Virus record (IMG/VR): IMGVR_UViG_3300020200_000052
Location: 1 to 45,948 of that record
Length of the DNA stretch: 45,948 bases
Origin: a virus
Strand: one strand, 5' to 3'
Below the pieces are notes generated by a model that made no database searches, was not told the origin of the DNA, and was given only the letters and a program-made list of their open reading frames with translations. This document shows, in pieces, positions 12,322-40,677 of this stretch; position 1 is the stretch's first letter; each line of letters opens with the position of its first letter. The position numbers and the translations under genes are program-made.

Positions 12322-12843
12322 ATGGGAAAATGTATTTGTTCAAGCTGTGGGATTGAATTTGAAAAATCAAATTCTGAATTAAATCGTAATAAAAAATTAA
12401 ATAGACCTAATTTTTGTTCAAGAAATTGTGTTGGTATTAACAATACTAAAAATTTATTAAACGTTAAAAATCGATACGATATACAAAGACACTCAAATAA
12501 TAGAGGTGGGGAATATTCAAAATTCAAATATCATTTTAGAAATATTAAAAAAAGAAATCAAATTATTGATTTAACTATTGAAGATTTGTCTAATCAATGG
12601 GTTTTACAAAATGGAATTTGTCCATTCAGTGGTATAAAATTAGAGTTGTCATCATATACCAAAATAAAAAAGAATCCAATATATTCTGCGTCTTTAGATA
12701 GGATAGATAATAAATTAGGTTATGTTAAAGGAAATGTTAGATGGGTTTCAAGGGCAATTAATTGGATGAAAAATGAAATGGATGATGCGTATATTCATGA
12801 ATTAATTAGTATTTTAATTAAAAATAAAAGGGAACCCTTTTGA
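12322..12843 (+). CDS. HNH homing endonuclease
   Basis: The 173-residue protein has an N-terminal zinc-finger-like pair (CSSC and CSRNC). The C-terminal half has ASLDRIDNKLGYVKGNVRWVSR followed by a conserved Asn (AINW), the pattern of phage HNH endonucleases that cut DNA and spread their own gene. It lies beside, not inside, the intron of the tmRNA gene on the opposite strand; the two 3' ends are 14 bases apart. Whether it acts on the tmRNA locus is unknown. Confidence 0.8.
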   Translation: MGKCICSSCGIEFEKSNSELNRNKKLNRPNFCSRNCVGINNTKNLLNVKNRYDIQRHSNNRGGEYSKFKYHFRNIKKRNQIIDLTIEDLSNQWVLQNGICPFSGIKLELSSYTKIKKNPIYSASLDRIDNKLGYVKGNVRWVSRAINWMKNEMDDAYIHELISILIKNKREPF

Positions 12844-12853
12844 GGTTCCCTTT
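12827..12853 (-). terminator. Terminator of the tmRNA gene
   Basis: A 10-bp perfect stem (AAAGGGAACC/GGTTCCCTTT). Read on the - strand it starts 4 bases after the tmRNA end and is followed by TATTTTTAATT. It also overlaps the last codons of the convergent HNH gene, so it may serve both. Confidence 0.75.
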
Positions 12854-12876
12854 AATGTGGAGGTGGCGGGTTTCGA

Positions 12877-13069
12877 CAATTATTGGACTATATCATCATC
12901 TCAACGAGATGTCGGACGCTAATGTGGTATTACGATAGAAGCGTCTATCACCCACTAGTCTCTGCACCTTCCTGTTCCTATCAGGCTTGGCTCAGGATTA
13001 TCTAAAAGACTTCCCCTGAGTTCATCCGATTTTCGACATATCTCACGATATGAAGGGGCTCGATTAAAA
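12877..13069 (-). mobile_element. Group I intron in the tmRNA T-loop (193 nt)
   Basis: On the - strand the core elements appear in order. P: AACTCAGGGGAAGTC (13008-13026 region). Q: AATCCTGAGCC (about 12988-13000). R: AAGGTGCAGAGACTAGTGGG (12951-12970). S: GATATAGTCC (12885-12894). CTCAGG pairs with CCTGAG (P4) and GACTA with TAGTC (P7). The 5' exon ends in U (T54 of the T-loop), which can form the G-U wobble with an internal guide GCCC (exon GGGU). The last intron base is G. P, Q, R and S resemble those of tRNA-Leu group I introns. It carries no ORF, so it depends on other endonucleases for mobility. Confidence 0.85.
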
Positions 13070-13277
13070 ACCCGCGTCTTGCTCGCAATACAATAAATGG
13101 ACTACACGTTTAGGACAGTATTTTCTAATACTCCGAAATTCACAATTCCCTTATTTTAAAGTGGTTCGGTTTACTGAGAACTAATCTTCCACTTTGTTTC
13201 TTTTAGGATAGAAACCACACCCTACAAGGACTTCTGTTCCAAGGTTATCTGTCCGTCGACCCGTTAGTTACAACCAA

Positions 13278-13340
13278 TTAGGCTGCAACTTTAGAAGTCG
13301 CAAGAAGACCTGCTACTTCCATTTGGTTATAAACGTTGCC
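13278..13340 (-). other. tmRNA tag-peptide reading frame
   Basis: Upstream UAAAC followed by GGC suggests the resume codon at 13340. Twenty codons give GNVYNQMEVAGLLATSKVAA, then TAA. The Val-Ala-Ala end matches the hydrophobic-Ala-Ala degron read by host proteases. The length is well above the usual 8-12 residues. The resume site is inferred and could be further downstream. Confidence 0.65.
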
Positions 13341-13451
13341 GTTTAAAATTTACCACCGTGGATTAAAGTCGTAGATGACATCCGACTACGTGCCCATTTA
13401 CCATATCAACGCCAATCAATTCCATACACCCCCATAAGTCAAAGAACAAGA

Positions 13452-22979: not shown

Positions 22980-24998
22980 TTACACCCTTTTTTTAAAAAT
23001 TTTTATTTCACCGTCTTTAAATTTTAAATTAATGGAATCATTCTCCTTAATTTCGCCTTTTAAGATTGAATCACTTAAATAATCTTCACACATATTTTGG
23101 ATGATTCTTTTAACTGGTCTTGCACCAAAATCTTCTTGAATATTAAGTTCCGATATTCTCTCCACAATTGTCTTATCAAAAGAAACTTTATAATTTTTTT
23201 CTTTTAATCTAACAGACAACTTATTTAATTCAATTTCAATAATCTTTTTAATTACATCTTTATCTAACGAATTAAAACTGATTATGTCGTCTACTCGATT
23301 CAAAAACTCAGGGTTAAAGTGTTGTTTTAATGATTTTTGAACGATTGATTTTTTAACCTCAAAGTTTTGTGATTCTGAAGATGATGAACTAAAACCAACA
23401 CCCTTACCAAATTCAGATACTTTTTTTGCACCAATATTGGATGTCATGATTACTATAGTGTTTGTAAAGTTTACTTTTCTTCCAAACGAATCGGTTAAAT
23501 GTCCTTCATCCAAAATTTGAAGTAAGATATTGAAAACGTCTTTGTGTGCTTTTTCAACCTCATCGAACAATACCACAGAAAATGGATTATTTTTAATCTT
23601 CTCAGTAAGTTGGCCTCCTTCATCATAACCAACATAACCTGGAGGTGAACCAATTAATTTTGCCACGTTGTGTTTTTCCATGTATTCACTCATATCAACA
23701 CGAATTACTTTTTCGGAGTCTCCGAAAAGTAGTTCAGCAATCGATTTTGCGAGATATGTTTTACCAACACCAGTTGAACCTAAAAATATAAAAGAACCTA
23801 TTGGTTTATTTGTATCTTTAATACCAACCCTATTTCTTCTAATTGATTTGGAAATTATTGAAATAGCCTCGTCTTGACCAATTACTTTAGATTTTAATTT
23901 TTCTTCTAAGTTCAAAAGATTTGCGGTCTCTGTATCATCAATCTTAGAGAGAGGTACACCTGTAATTTGTGAAATCATTTCATATACATCTGCAACCGTT
24001 ACGGGTGTTTTATTGTCTTTTTGTTTGTCTAACCACTTCTTTTTTTCATCATTTAATTTACTCAGTAATTTTCTTTCTTCATCTCTTAATTTAGCCGCTT
24101 GTTCATAGTTTTGACTTTTTACAACTTCTATCTTCCTATTTTTTAAATCATCAGATTCCTTTTTTAGTTTTTCAATAATCTCAGGAATTTTGGTATTTAT
24201 TTTTTTTTCTGAACCCAATTCATCCATCACGTCAATTGCTTTATCGGGAAACTGACGGTCTGTGATAAATCTTGATGACAAATTCACGATAGTTTCAAAA
24301 ACCTCCGGTTCATAAAATACTTTGTGAAAATTTTGATATGAATCTTTTAAATTTTTTAAAATTTGAACTGTTTCTTCCTTACTTGGTTCTTTCAAAATTA
24401 TTTTTTGAAATCTTCTAACTAATGCACCATCTTTCTCGATGTGTTTTTTAAATTCATCAAATGTTGTCGCCCCAATACATTGAATTTCTCCTCGAGCTAA
24501 TGCGGGTTTCATAATATTAGCGGCGTCCATTGACCCGCTAGCGTTGCCAGCACCAACCATTGTGTGTATTTCATCAATAAACACAATTACATTAGGTTCA
24601 TTCTGTATTTCGTTTAGAACTGCTTTAATACGTTCTTCAAACTGACCTCTGTATTTTGTACCAGCCACCAAAGATGTTAAATCTAATGATACAACTCGTT
24701 TGTCTAAAAGATTTGATGGACAATCTCCTTTTACAATCATCTGAGCGAGTTTCTCAACTAAAGCCGATTTACCCACACCCGCGTCACCAATTATCACTAC
24801 GTTGTTTTTCTTTTTTCTAGATAATATCTGTGCAATTCTTTTAACCTCACCATCTCTCCCAATTATTGGGTCAATTTTACCCTCTTCTACCATTTTGTTT
24901 AAATCCCTTGAAAAGTTATCAAGGATAGGGGTGGTTGAACCCTTTCTTGTTTTCTTTGGGTTGGTTGTGTTTCCTTCTTCGAAAAAATCTACTGACAT
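22980..24998 (-). CDS. ClpC-like Hsp100 unfoldase lacking the N domain
   Basis: The 672-residue protein has two AAA+ modules: Walker A GDAGVGKSA (71-79) with Walker B VIVFIDEIH, and Walker A GSTGVGKTY (407-415) with VVLFDEVEKAH. A UVR-like motif (YEQAAKLRDEERKL, 298-311) between them is a ClpC trait. The usual N-terminal Clp repeat domain (about 140 residues) is absent, replaced by a short polar leader. A VGF tripeptide (534-536) sits in the loop where ClpC and ClpA dock on ClpP. It should unfold proteins, perhaps for the host ClpP. It is a single gene with a promoter-like upstream region. Confidence 0.9.
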   Translation of the reverse strand: MSVDFFEEGNTTNPKKTRKGSTTPILDNFSRDLNKMVEEGKIDPIIGRDGEVKRIAQILSRKKKNNVVIIGDAGVGKSALVEKLAQMIVKGDCPSNLLDKRVVSLDLTSLVAGTKYRGQFEERIKAVLNEIQNEPNVIVFIDEIHTMVGAGNASGSMDAANIMKPALARGEIQCIGATTFDEFKKHIEKDGALVRRFQKIILKEPSKEETVQILKNLKDSYQNFHKVFYEPEVFETIVNLSSRFITDRQFPDKAIDVMDELGSEKKINTKIPEIIEKLKKESDDLKNRKIEVVKSQNYEQAAKLRDEERKLLSKLNDEKKKWLDKQKDNKTPVTVADVYEMISQITGVPLSKIDDTETANLLNLEEKLKSKVIGQDEAISIISKSIRRNRVGIKDTNKPIGSFIFLGSTGVGKTYLAKSIAELLFGDSEKVIRVDMSEYMEKHNVAKLIGSPPGYVGYDEGGQLTEKIKNNPFSVVLFDEVEKAHKDVFNILLQILDEGHLTDSFGRKVNFTNTIVIMTSNIGAKKVSEFGKGVGFSSSSSESQNFEVKKSIVQKSLKQHFNPEFLNRVDDIISFNSLDKDVIKKIIEIELNKLSVRLKEKNYKVSFDKTIVERISELNIQEDFGARPVKRIIQNMCEDYLSDSILKGEIKENDSINLKFKDGEIKIFKKRV

Positions 24999-35929: not shown

Positions 35930-37939
35930 ATGAGCGAAAAATCCATTCTAGAACAAGCATTGCTTCAAGTACAGACCCTTGAGGAGGCGGTAAGGGCAAA
36001 CGCAAAAGGTATACTTGCTTCAACTATGAAACAAGAAATCGGCGATTTGTTGAAAGAATCCATGGAAGATGAGGAAAAAGTTGTTAAAGAACAACCTAAT
36101 CCTGAAGAAGACCCCGCAGACGATGTATCAGCAGGTGCTGACGATAACACTGGGGACGATAAATCAGACGAAGATGATGACAACTCATCTGATGAACTAT
36201 CTAAAGACATCGACTCAAAAGATTCATCTGATGACGACTTTGGCGACATGGATAACATGAACGACTTTGGAGACATGGATGATGACGATGTGGTTGATAT
36301 GACTGGTGCTGACGAAGACGAAATTTTAAAAGTTTTTAAAGCAATGAGTCCTGAAGATGGAGTAATCGTTAAGAAAGATGATGACCACATCGAATTGTCT
36401 GATGGTGATGACGAGTATATCATTAAGTTAGGTGCAGACATGGAAATGGATGATGAAGACATGGAAATGGATGATGAAGACATGGAAATGGATGATGAAG
36501 ACATGGAAATGGATGATGAAGACATGGAAATGGATGATGAAGACATGGAAATGGATGATGAAGACATGGAAATGGATGATGAAGACATGGAAATGGATGA
36601 TGAAGACATGGAAATGGATGATGAAGACATGGAAATGGATGATGAAGACATGGAAATGGATGATGAAGACATGGAAATGGATGATGAAGACATGGAAATG
36701 GATGATGAAGACATGGAAATGGATGATGAAGACATGGAAATGGATGATGAAGACATGGAAATGGATGATGAAGGAGAAACTATCGATATGAGAGGAGCTT
36801 CTGACGCTGAAGTCTTAAAAGTTTTCAAAGCAATGGGAGATGATGATGGAATCGTTATAAAAAAAGAAGGTGAAATGTTACACCTTGAAGACGGTGATAA
36901 CGAATATATGATACGACTAAGAGAATCAGAAAGAAAAATGAATGAAGTAATATATGAAATAGAAATGGATGGGGACACTTCAAGCAAGTTTGGTAAGAAC
37001 ATATATGACGAATCCGATTATAAATTGGGCGAAGATATAGATAGCGAGCCTGAACATGAATATAATGAAGGTTGGTCTTGGGCTGGTGCCGCAAAAGGTG
37101 CTATGATGGGCGGAATTGGTCTTGAAGAAGAAGATGGTTACGGAAGTGAAGAAAAAGTTTATGAATTCGAAGGAGATGACTTAGAAAATGCAATCGCTGA
37201 AGCCGTTGAAAAAACCAAAAAATCAATCAAAAATAAAGGTGTCGGTATTGGTCGTGGTCCTAAATTTGCATATGGTAAAAAACCTAACATGAGCGGAGGG
37301 TTTAATGAAAAAAGAAAAGAAGCTTTTGGAAAAGGAACTAAAGCCATGGGAACAGGTAAAGCAAAATTTGAATATAAGGACGAAACGAATGGTGATTTCA
37401 AGAATGTTAGAAAAATGGAAACTAAAGAAGCCGTACGAACTAATAGTTACACCAGAGCCAATAAAGTTGGAAACAGAAAAGGTTCTGATCAAAATGTTAA
37501 CAGAAAAGAAATCAGAGTAAGACCGCACACAAGAATAAATGAAGAAGTTGAAATGTTAAAAGAAAAAAATAACGAGTATAAAAAAGCTTTAGACGTTTTC
37601 AGAACCAAAATCAATGAAGTTGCGGTTTTTAATTCAAATTTAGCTTATGCAACTCGTTTGTTCACTGAACACTCAACAACTAAACAAGAAAAAATAAATA
37701 TTCTAAGAAGATTTGATAATGTTGAATCTTTGAAAGAATCTAAAAATCTTTACCGAACTATTAAAAATGAATTGTCATCTTCAGTAAGTTCAGGTTCAGA
37801 ACAAAAATTAACCGAATCAATTGAAAGAACTGTAAATAAATCTGTTGAAACAGGTTCAGCAGTAAACTTAATTGAGTCAAAAACGTATGAGAATCCTCAA
37901 TTTTTAAGAATGAAGGATTTGATGTTAAAAATAAAATAA
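35930..37939 (+). CDS. Scaffold/prohead core protein (T4 gp22 position) with a long acidic repeat
   Basis: The 669-residue protein lies between protease and capsid, where T4 has the gp22 scaffold. The N terminus is helical (LEQALLQVQTLEEAV). Residues about 170-281 consist of 16 identical heptads DMEMDDE. Copies of a 45-residue module (EILKVFKAMSPEDGV..., then EVLKVFKAMGDDDGI...) flank the repeat. The C-terminal third is basic and then coiled-coil, as in T4 scaffold proteins. It would be cleaved by the gp21-like protease. The extreme acidity may imitate or balance DNA charge in the prohead. Confidence 0.8.
   Translation: MSEKSILEQALLQVQTLEEAVRANAKGILASTMKQEIGDLLKESMEDEEKVVKEQPNPEEDPADDVSAGADDNTGDDKSDEDDDNSSDELSKDIDSKDSSDDDFGDMDNMNDFGDMDDDDVVDMTGADEDEILKVFKAMSPEDGVIVKKDDDHIELSDGDDEYIIKLGADMEMDDEDMEMDDEDMEMDDEDMEMDDEDMEMDDEDMEMDDEDMEMDDEDMEMDDEDMEMDDEDMEMDDEDMEMDDEDMEMDDEDMEMDDEDMEMDDEDMEMDDEDMEMDDEGETIDMRGASDAEVLKVFKAMGDDDGIVIKKEGEMLHLEDGDNEYMIRLRESERKMNEVIYEIEMDGDTSSKFGKNIYDESDYKLGEDIDSEPEHEYNEGWSWAGAAKGAMMGGIGLEEEDGYGSEEKVYEFEGDDLENAIAEAVEKTKKSIKNKGVGIGRGPKFAYGKKPNMSGGFNEKRKEAFGKGTKAMGTGKAKFEYKDETNGDFKNVRKMETKEAVRTNSYTRANKVGNRKGSDQNVNRKEIRVRPHTRINEEVEMLKEKNNEYKKALDVFRTKINEVAVFNSNLAYATRLFTEHSTTKQEKINILRRFDNVESLKESKNLYRTIKNELSSSVSSGSEQKLTESIERTVNKSVETGSAVNLIESKTYENPQFLRMKDLMLKIK
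36437..36772 (+). repeat. Sixteen perfect copies of a 21-bp repeat
   Basis: The unit GACATGGAAATGGATGATGAA encodes DMEMDDE. It repeats 16 times with no base change that I can see, also at synonymous positions. This points to recent expansion or continuing homogenisation. Copy number should be checked by long reads, because assemblers collapse such arrays. Confidence 0.92.
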
Positions 37940-39993: not shown

Positions 39994-40677
39994 ATGAAAA
40001 AAATAATTATTGATAAGGATTTAGAATGTGAAATTATAAGACTTTATAATGAAGAATATTTGGGTAGTCCTTCTATATCTGAAAAATTAGATATAAAAAA
40101 ACATATAGTGTTAAGAATTTTAAAAGAAAATAATGTTAAGATTGGGTCATCTGGAAGAAAATATAAAGGGGGTAAAAGTGCATCTGATAAAAGAAACTAC
40201 CAAAAACACAAAGAAAAGAAATTAATTTATTACAAAAAATGGTCTGAAAAAAATAGAGAACATCTTAATGAGTATCATCAAAAATGGAGAAAAAAAAATA
40301 TTGAAAGACATAGGGAAAATAAAAGAAATTACGAAAGAAATCGTAAATCAAGAGACCCCCTCTATAAATTAATAAACAATTTCAGAACTGCTATTTATCA
40401 AGTTCTTAAAGAAAACGACATAAATAAAAACGGACATTATTTTGACATTCTAAAATATACTCCCGAGCAACTTATATCTCATTTGGAAGATAGATTCAGT
40501 GAAAATATGTCGTGGGATAACTACGGTGAATGGCACGTTGACCACGTTAAACCCATTTCATCGTTTATGATTTTAGAAATAGGCGATGAAGCGTTTATGA
40601 ATTGTTGGTCATTAGGTAATTTACAACCTATGTGGGGTGTTGACAATATTAAAAAATCAAATAAATTATTGTCTTAA
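39994..40677 (+). CDS. HNH homing endonuclease with helix-turn-helix
   Basis: The 227-residue protein has an N-terminal helix-turn-helix-like segment (SPSISEKLDIKKHIVLRIL) and a basic helical linker. The C-terminal HNH-type nuclease reads YTPEQLISHLEDRF, WDNYGEWHVDHVKPIS, then CWSLGNLQPMW and a final NIKKSNK. This is the pattern of phage HNH homing endonucleases. It sits directly after the capsid terminator, a frequent insertion place for freestanding endonucleases. Confidence 0.87.
   Translation: MKKIIIDKDLECEIIRLYNEEYLGSPSISEKLDIKKHIVLRILKENNVKIGSSGRKYKGGKSASDKRNYQKHKEKKLIYYKKWSEKNREHLNEYHQKWRKKNIERHRENKRNYERNRKSRDPLYKLINNFRTAIYQVLKENDINKNGHYFDILKYTPEQLISHLEDRFSENMSWDNYGEWHVDHVKPISSFMILEIGDEAFMNCWSLGNLQPMWGVDNIKKSNKLLS

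Follow-up and report, generated by a model that had tools for sequence, protein, structure and literature searches.

The virus record IMGVR_UViG_3300020200_000052 carries a transfer-messenger RNA (tmRNA) gene that is split in its T-loop by a group I intron of 193 nt with no open reading frame (ORF). The whole record, 45,948 bases with T4-like terminase, portal and capsid genes, is referred to here as the window; other contigs and loci are given by L numbers. We consider it likely that the tmRNA gene of this T4-like phage was invaded by a mobile intron, whose spread was most likely driven by an adjacent, free-standing HNH/EndoVII-like endonuclease gene (collaborative homing). The features concerned are listed below.

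13433-12858, minus strand: tmRNA gene, 576 bp for the whole gene including the intron.
13070-13433, minus strand: tmRNA 5' exon, 364 nt, with the 5' acceptor strand, the mRNA-like domain and the 5' half of the T-arm up to U54 (Rfam RF00023 match; ARAGORN on the spliced form).
12877-13069, minus strand: group I intron, 193 nt, without an ORF or a P9 hairpin (Rfam RF00028; covariation; empty-site orthologues; U.G pair, terminal G and P10).
13056-13063, minus strand: internal guide UCGAGCCC, the complement of T-loop GGGUUCGA with one G opposite U54 (sequence).
12858-12876, minus strand: tmRNA 3' exon, 19 nt, from U55 to discriminator A73, CCA not encoded (sequence; ARAGORN on the spliced form).
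13278-13340, minus strand: tag reading frame GNVYNQMEVAGLLATSKVAA, closed by a stop codon (ARAGORN on the spliced form; similar tags in sister phages).
12322-12843, plus strand: HNH/EndoVII-like free-standing endonuclease gene, 173 aa, convergent with the tmRNA gene and ending 14 bp beyond its end (phrog_3322, E 6.5e-22; phrog_1035, endonuclease VII, E 7.8e-13).
12826-12853, minus strand: terminator-like hairpin 3' of the tmRNA, overlapping the last codons of the endonuclease gene (read from sequence alone).

A first-pass annotation of the window had proposed a phage tmRNA at 12858-13433, split in its T-loop by a group I intron, and the sequence, Rfam, ARAGORN and covariation bear it out. The acceptor is formed by 5'-GGGGGUG and CACCUCC-3' (7 bp, with G3-U70), and the 5' half of the T-arm ends at 13070 (U54) while the 3' half starts at 12876 (U55), as the annotation had stated. 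ARAGORN detected a tmRNA neither in the window as a whole nor in the unspliced gene on its own; after in silico removal of 13069-12877 it reported a complete tmRNA with tag GNVYNQMEVAGLLATSKVAA, and the spliced form has the alanine-type acceptor with G3-U70, the T-arm, the tag ORF and the resume context. Of the two Rfam covariance models that the annotation had suggested running, Intron_gpI matched well above its cut-off of 50 bits (68.8 bits, E 1.7e-15, at 13079-12867), whereas the tmRNA model fell short of its cut-off of 47 on the unspliced gene (35.4 bits, E 3.7e-12, at 13433-13048). A score below cut-off is expected here, because the gene is interrupted. Related loci behaved similarly: ARAGORN found a tmRNA in 0 of 20 intron-bearing stretches left unspliced and in 9 of 20 relatives spliced in silico, with L442, L448, L460 and L462 later recognized and L461 not. 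As only part of the spliced relatives are recognized, ARAGORN is not a complete test, and annotators should be warned that intron-bearing tmRNA genes escape it when unspliced.

The intron is inserted between U54 and U55, which is loop position 2 in the numbering of PMC11915505. P1 (GGGU-UU/GA-GCCC) places a U.G wobble, U(-1).G, at the 5' splice site, the last intron nucleotide is G, and P10 comprises 4 bp (UCGA/UCGA). These elements accompany a conserved P3-P8 core that includes P7. The G opposite U54 in the guide sets the predicted 5' splice site. Related introns occur at position 2 (192-197 nt) and at position 3 (213-225 nt), the latter having a P9 hairpin in addition, and it follows from their alignment that the two groups are homologous. 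The guide is mostly UCGAGCCC in position-2 introns and mostly UCGGACCC in position-3 introns, where the G lies opposite U55; hence, as the guide G moves, the splice site would move by one nucleotide. In L258 and L465, the last nucleotide of the position-3 intron seems to be A, not G. The intron of L252, which lies at the end of a contig, resembles a recombinant between those of positions 2 and 3 and may be an assembly chimera. The first-pass annotation called the intron very small, a fair remark, though the gene sets no record: at 576 bp it is longer than the smallest intron-bearing tmRNA gene that a 2025 database paper was aware of, for which 545 bp is quoted (PMC11915505).

Several observations indicate that the split gene and its intron are real. 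Across 19 related introns, the 49 pairs drawn for P2-P8 with P7 were 91.6% paired, with 23 pairs changed on both sides, compared to 32-44% in the same alignment when the partner was slid. The alignment holds 19 of 22 stretches, with L007 and L299 (near-duplicates) and L252 (possible chimera) left out. P3 and P7 are invariant in 19/19, so they provide no covariation information. Folding as a single strand gave only a weak advantage over shuffled sequences (z -1.58, computed one base off the final intron coordinates). The halves of the T-stem also co-vary across the intron (GCGGG/CCCGC, ACGGG/CCCGU, GAGGG/CCCUC, GUGGG/CCCAC, AUGGG/CCCAU and CGGGG/CCCCG): the two pairs outside GGG/CCC read GC, AC, GA, GU, AU or CG, with matching 3' halves, in one set where the 5' half was found by BLAST with no pairing demanded and in another where pairing was demanded. 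Uninterrupted orthologues, among them L032, L033 and L034, read GACGCGGG|TTCGAAACCCGCC at exactly the site occupied in the window, and the L032 gene scores 80.8 bits as a tmRNA in Rfam. The tmRNA and intron of the window are 100% identical in four other contigs, which argues against an assembly artefact.

To assess which genes accompany the intron, we compared tmRNA loci from viral contigs. Intron carriers came from a core-pattern scan and form a partial list, so counts hold for the matches listed. The forward set comprised 91 distinct loci (73 empty, 9 with a position-2 and 9 with a position-3 intron), with at least 700 nt of downstream sequence for 66/73 intronless loci and 17/18 intron carriers. 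The gene directly downstream was of the HNH type (9) or LAGLIDADG type (2) in 11 of the 18 listed carriers, versus 2 of the 73 intronless loci (Fisher p 4e-8). When GIY-YIG genes were included, the intronless count rose to 7/73 (p 1e-5). Three genes were not counted as close: an HNH_3 gene at 483 bp from L240, where the ARAGORN tmRNA call is unsure; a partial match to HNH at 1.5 kb from L404; and, 1.07 kb from L024, a gene resembling an endonuclease.

The association persisted when shared ancestry was considered. In a tree of 88 exon rows (70 intronless, 11 with the intron at position 2 and 7 with it at position 3; L240, L260, L404, L381 and rows below 250 nt left out), intron presence changed state 13 times and was patchy among close relatives. 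Ten independent pairs differed in the intron; on average, HNH/LAGLIDADG presence differed the same way in 7.6 and the opposite way in 0.1 (sign test, median p 0.008, range 0.008-0.125). The median p was 0.03 when GIY-YIG genes were counted or HNH genes alone were used. Introns can also be more alike than the exons around them, with identities of 90% versus 72% for the window and L022 and 98% versus 84% for L022 and L013. Searches in the reverse direction, which reach close relatives only, gave a similar picture. A tmRNA gene adjoined 16/16 viral loci found with the window-type HNH gene (8 of these contigs being new), 7/8 found with the divergent L272-type HNH gene (the query's own locus included), and 5/5 found with the LAGLIDADG gene (three new, with L461 recognized as a tmRNA by motif only, and two being the known L232 and L014).

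The state of the T-arm differs between loci with and without the HNH gene. A hand count over 22 tmRNA loci with an HNH gene, in which L252 and L299 are taken apart though their 3' region is common to both, gave 15 genes split by the intron, 6 intronless ones whose T-stem or loop is altered (L049, L050, L447, L444, L467 and L469), and 1 intact one. Thus, an intact, uninterrupted GGGTTC[GA]ANNCCC is present in 1/22 HNH carriers versus 11/13 distinct HNH-free loci (Fisher p 2e-6), in sets that were assembled in different ways and are not entirely independent. The 13 are those that passed the tmRNA motif filter among 80 loci fetched only via a neighboring phosphoesterase gene. The natural reading is that the intact T-arm would be the target of the endonuclease.

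A close pair of loci bears on how the intron may move. L250, with intron and HNH gene, and L346, with neither, are 95.6% identical over the 4.1 kb leading up to the T-arm. From there, ~0.9 kb of L250, which includes a differing T-stem as well as intron, 3' exon and HNH gene, replaces ~75 nt of L346. The intron and the endonuclease gene thus seem to have arrived together, and joint transfer of an intron, flanking exon bases and an endonuclease gene is what homing predicts. Pairs as close as this make the homing model directly testable. L232 (intron and LAGLIDADG gene) and L389 (neither) also have nearly the same exon on the tree.

From these comparisons, we propose the following course of events. 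The intron RNA would splice itself out using external guanosine: GGGU of the T-stem/loop would pair with guide UCGAGCCC to form P1, attack would follow U54, and ligation of U54 to U55 would yield a normal T-arm. Restoring the T-arm in this way would allow the tmRNA to survive the invasion; the earlier proposal that splicing is needed to rebuild the T-arm, and that the 193-nt intron has no ORF, is supported. The HNH/EndoVII-like enzyme would cut the T-arm of intronless tmRNA genes in co-infecting phages, and repair from the donor would copy intron and endonuclease gene together. The donor would be protected because its intron splits the target, and some intronless carriers seem to be protected by a changed T-arm sequence. 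Such a layout, in which the intron lacks an ORF and an endonuclease gene stands free next to the host gene, is that of collaborative homing.

A different explanation is that intron and endonucleases are independent visitors: the 3' flank of the tmRNA gene would be a hot spot for endonucleases that home by themselves (intronless homing), and the intron would spread in some other way or vertically. Several observations weigh against joint homing, and a number of them fit independent visitors. GIY-YIG-type homing endonuclease genes lie directly downstream of intact, intronless tmRNAs in 5 loci (L037:7230-7871 by profile; L040, L042, L363 and L403 by clustering with L037), and the 3' flank may therefore be a general endonuclease hot spot. 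HNH genes also stand beside intronless tmRNAs, namely the six with altered T-arms and L449, whose tmRNA is intact and uninterrupted beside a 44%-identical HNH gene; L450, with the same T-arm, also has such a gene, and the two form a clear exception. Conversely, no HNH or LAGLIDADG gene lies a short way downstream in 7 of the 18 listed intron carriers, and 2/13 HNH-free loci are also altered in the T-stem. In L250/L346, 53 aligned nt are followed by a second unaligned stretch (~240 versus 30 nt) before identity returns to 93% over ~1 kb, so one clean exchange tract is not proven. L232 and L389 both have unlike sequence downstream, and that pair therefore says less. The eighth L272-type locus, L470, has no tmRNA on the available side, its other side being cut off. 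In addition, the endonuclease classes were chosen after the intron carriers had been looked at, and most of the wider intact set came from a pattern that demands an intact T-arm.

The protein itself adds doubt. The endonuclease family has an invariant D126-R127-I128-D129, assigned by eye in an alignment of 10 of its members, with Arg at the expected position of the catalytic His of HNH/EndoVII enzymes, which makes cleavage uncertain. Despite the phrog_1035 match, D-R-I-D thus stands in place of the D-H-x-H of the DHHRN (F-CphI/EndoVII) family, whose conserved residues are an Asp-His pair, His, Arg and Asn. No Pfam family was found in the 173-aa protein at E 0.1, and its AlphaFold model (predicted local distance difference test, pLDDT, 49.7) was too poor for a fold search. 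Yet independent visitors would account poorly for the tree-corrected association, the near absence of intact targets among HNH carriers, and the presence or absence of both elements together in L250/L346. We regard that explanation as unlikely, and favor joint homing of intron and endonuclease gene.

The first-pass annotation had further suggested that splicing ties the tmRNA to guanosine level or phage timing. In that case, splicing would gate tmRNA maturation according to guanosine level or infection stage, and the intron would be kept for this purpose. Group I introns require guanosine, and the T-arm would become functional, allowing charging, only after splicing. However, we found no support for this suggestion. 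Intron presence changes 13 times on the exon tree, close relatives lack the intron, and the intron is associated with endonuclease genes. We noticed no additional regulatory element when the introns were aligned, though no search aimed at one was made. Patchiness, introns more similar than their exons and an adjacent endonuclease together are more in keeping with a selfish mobile element than with a regulator that is maintained, and we consider a regulatory role very improbable. Least plausible of all is a decaying tmRNA pseudogene whose intron no longer splices: the intron is very small and lacks P9, and the window record has no smpB match, but the T-stem co-varies across the intron, P3 and P7 never vary, sister phages have a similar tag, and four other contigs have an identical locus.

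A second endonuclease family occupies the same place. In L014 and L232, a LAGLIDADG ORF (Pfam LAGLIDADG_3, over its cut-off) lies antisense 0-4 bp beyond the tmRNA; it is unrelated to the HNH-type gene that takes this free-standing position elsewhere. In L460, L461 and L462, a relative lies antisense inside the intron, after the core and before the 3' exon, and brings the intron to ~670-700 nt. The arrangements differ in the side of the short 3' exon on which the gene sits. LAGLIDADG relatives are found both before and after the transition from a free-standing to an intron-borne endonuclease.

These data allow a broader scheme, which we offer tentatively and with somewhat less than even confidence. 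The T-arm of phage tmRNA may be a homing arena that shows the stages in the making of a mobile group I intron side by side. Some genes would be empty, and others would have no intron but an endonuclease beside a tmRNA whose T-arm is altered. In a third group, the intron is accompanied by a free-standing endonuclease just beyond the 3' exon, of the HNH type or, independently, of the LAGLIDADG type, and in a fourth the intron itself contains a member of that LAGLIDADG family. As the guide is the complement of GGGUUCGA with one movable G, two guide changes would shift the insertion by 1 nt, from position 2 to 3 or back. Phages could be a reservoir seeding bacterial tmRNA genes.

The components of this system have precedents. 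PMC11915505 reports 883 intron-bearing bacterial tmRNA genes from 21 phyla, with introns at T-loop positions 2, 3, 7 and 8; position 2 is used in Anaerolineae, save one Myxococcota, and position 3 in Bacteroidia. Gene, loop and splice-site rules are the same as in the window, whose intron is also small and ORF-less like most of those described there. Endonuclease ORFs are given for 36 of the 883 introns, with LAGLIDADG in 23 of the 844 first examined (PMC11915505), and L460, L461 and L462 likewise have a LAGLIDADG ORF inside the intron. Unlike the bacterial cases, the LAGLIDADG ORF here follows the core in antisense direction, and L014 and L232 have a member of its family, oriented likewise, immediately beyond the tmRNA. 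Further differences are that the introns here are in phages, that related introns use positions 2 and 3, and that a free-standing endonuclease gene adjoins. The passages of PMC11915505 consulted describe neither an intron-bearing phage tmRNA nor a free-standing partner.

Collaborative homing has been described for two phage systems, according to the part of PMC3984707 drawn on here. One is F-CphI and the psbA intron of cyanophage S-PM2, for which the portions of PMC6083498 and PMC3984707 drawn on report cleavage by F-CphI. As in that system, a phage gene contains a group I intron and has as its neighbor a free-standing endonuclease gene of the EndoVII type. In the present case, by contrast, the host gene is an RNA gene, cleavage is predicted where for F-CphI it was shown, and the D-H pair that belongs to the proposed DHHRN motif is missing from the window protein. 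Phage tmRNAs with or without SmpB are described in PMC7162821 and PMC9004378, in the sections consulted, and our sister phages likewise carry both tmRNA and smpB; the word 'intron' does not occur in the main text of either paper. Among the results listed by searches of an open-access library, we found no paper that deals with an intron-bearing phage tmRNA or with a free-standing endonuclease partner at a tmRNA gene. Thus, whereas bacterial tmRNA T-loop introns, phage tmRNA with SmpB and collaborative homing are known, an intron-bearing phage tmRNA with a free-standing endonuclease partner is new as far as literature searches show. If confirmed, it would be a further case of collaborative homing and the first known to us at an RNA gene. 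The phage introns also bear on the origin of T-loop introns in bacterial tmRNA genes.

We also looked for the intron in bacteria and in other phages. By blastn against 395 genomes (the phylum of a Mucilaginibacter genome), the intron gave 6 weak core matches. Five of the six were group I introns over the Rfam cut-off, and all five, judged by eye from their surroundings, sit in the anticodon loops of tRNAs. Against 249 genomes (the class of an Anaerolineales genome), there were 6 matches, all group I introns over the cut-off. This blastn search found no case of the window's intron in a bacterial tmRNA among the sampled genomes. A pattern scan of genome contigs gave at least 118 matches, of which the 80 inspected looked like chance, except perhaps L138. 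No record of a phage collection matched the L032 tmRNA (blastn, E 1e-3). Intron-like matches occurred in 22 phage records, and the 7 inspected lay in or near psbA, terminase, tRNA and other genes, with none seen in tmRNA. Two group I introns in tRNA anticodon loops, again read by eye, are at L319:2941-3164 and L427:1363-1625, a viral contig and a sampled Bacteroidota genome.

No smpB was matched in the window record or in a 171-kb sister record. In sister phages L035 (134-571), L039, L344, L040, L045, L049, L050 and L038 (cut), smpB is in the same fetched stretch as the tmRNA gene, as judged by 161.5 bits to PF01668 for the L035 record and by tblastn for the remainder. For the phages, ARAGORN calls tags of mostly 17-21 aa with endings such as VAA, VAVA or VTVA. 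These differ from GENNYALAA of the one Mucilaginibacter genome tested, and they may be read by other proteases. The window encodes a Clp-type AAA+ ATPase (22980-24998), a possible partner for tagged proteins. L381, one viral contig, has two tmRNA 3' ends ~620 bp apart, perhaps reflecting a duplicated tmRNA gene. In several sister phages, GOLLD RNA (202-327 bits) lies no more than a few kb from the tmRNA gene, at L021:627-1037, L444:5084-5493, L465:3627-4033, L466:2733-3140 and L469:1-260 (cut).

The best portal matches include a Microcystis phage and Flavobacterium phages, and the best matches of the endonuclease in phage records include crAss-like phages; a Bacteroidota host is our guess. A second EndoVII-like endonuclease gene (39994-40677) adjoins the major capsid gene of the window, and an acidic protein with tandem EDMEMDD-type repeats is encoded just before the capsid gene, at about 36430-36790.
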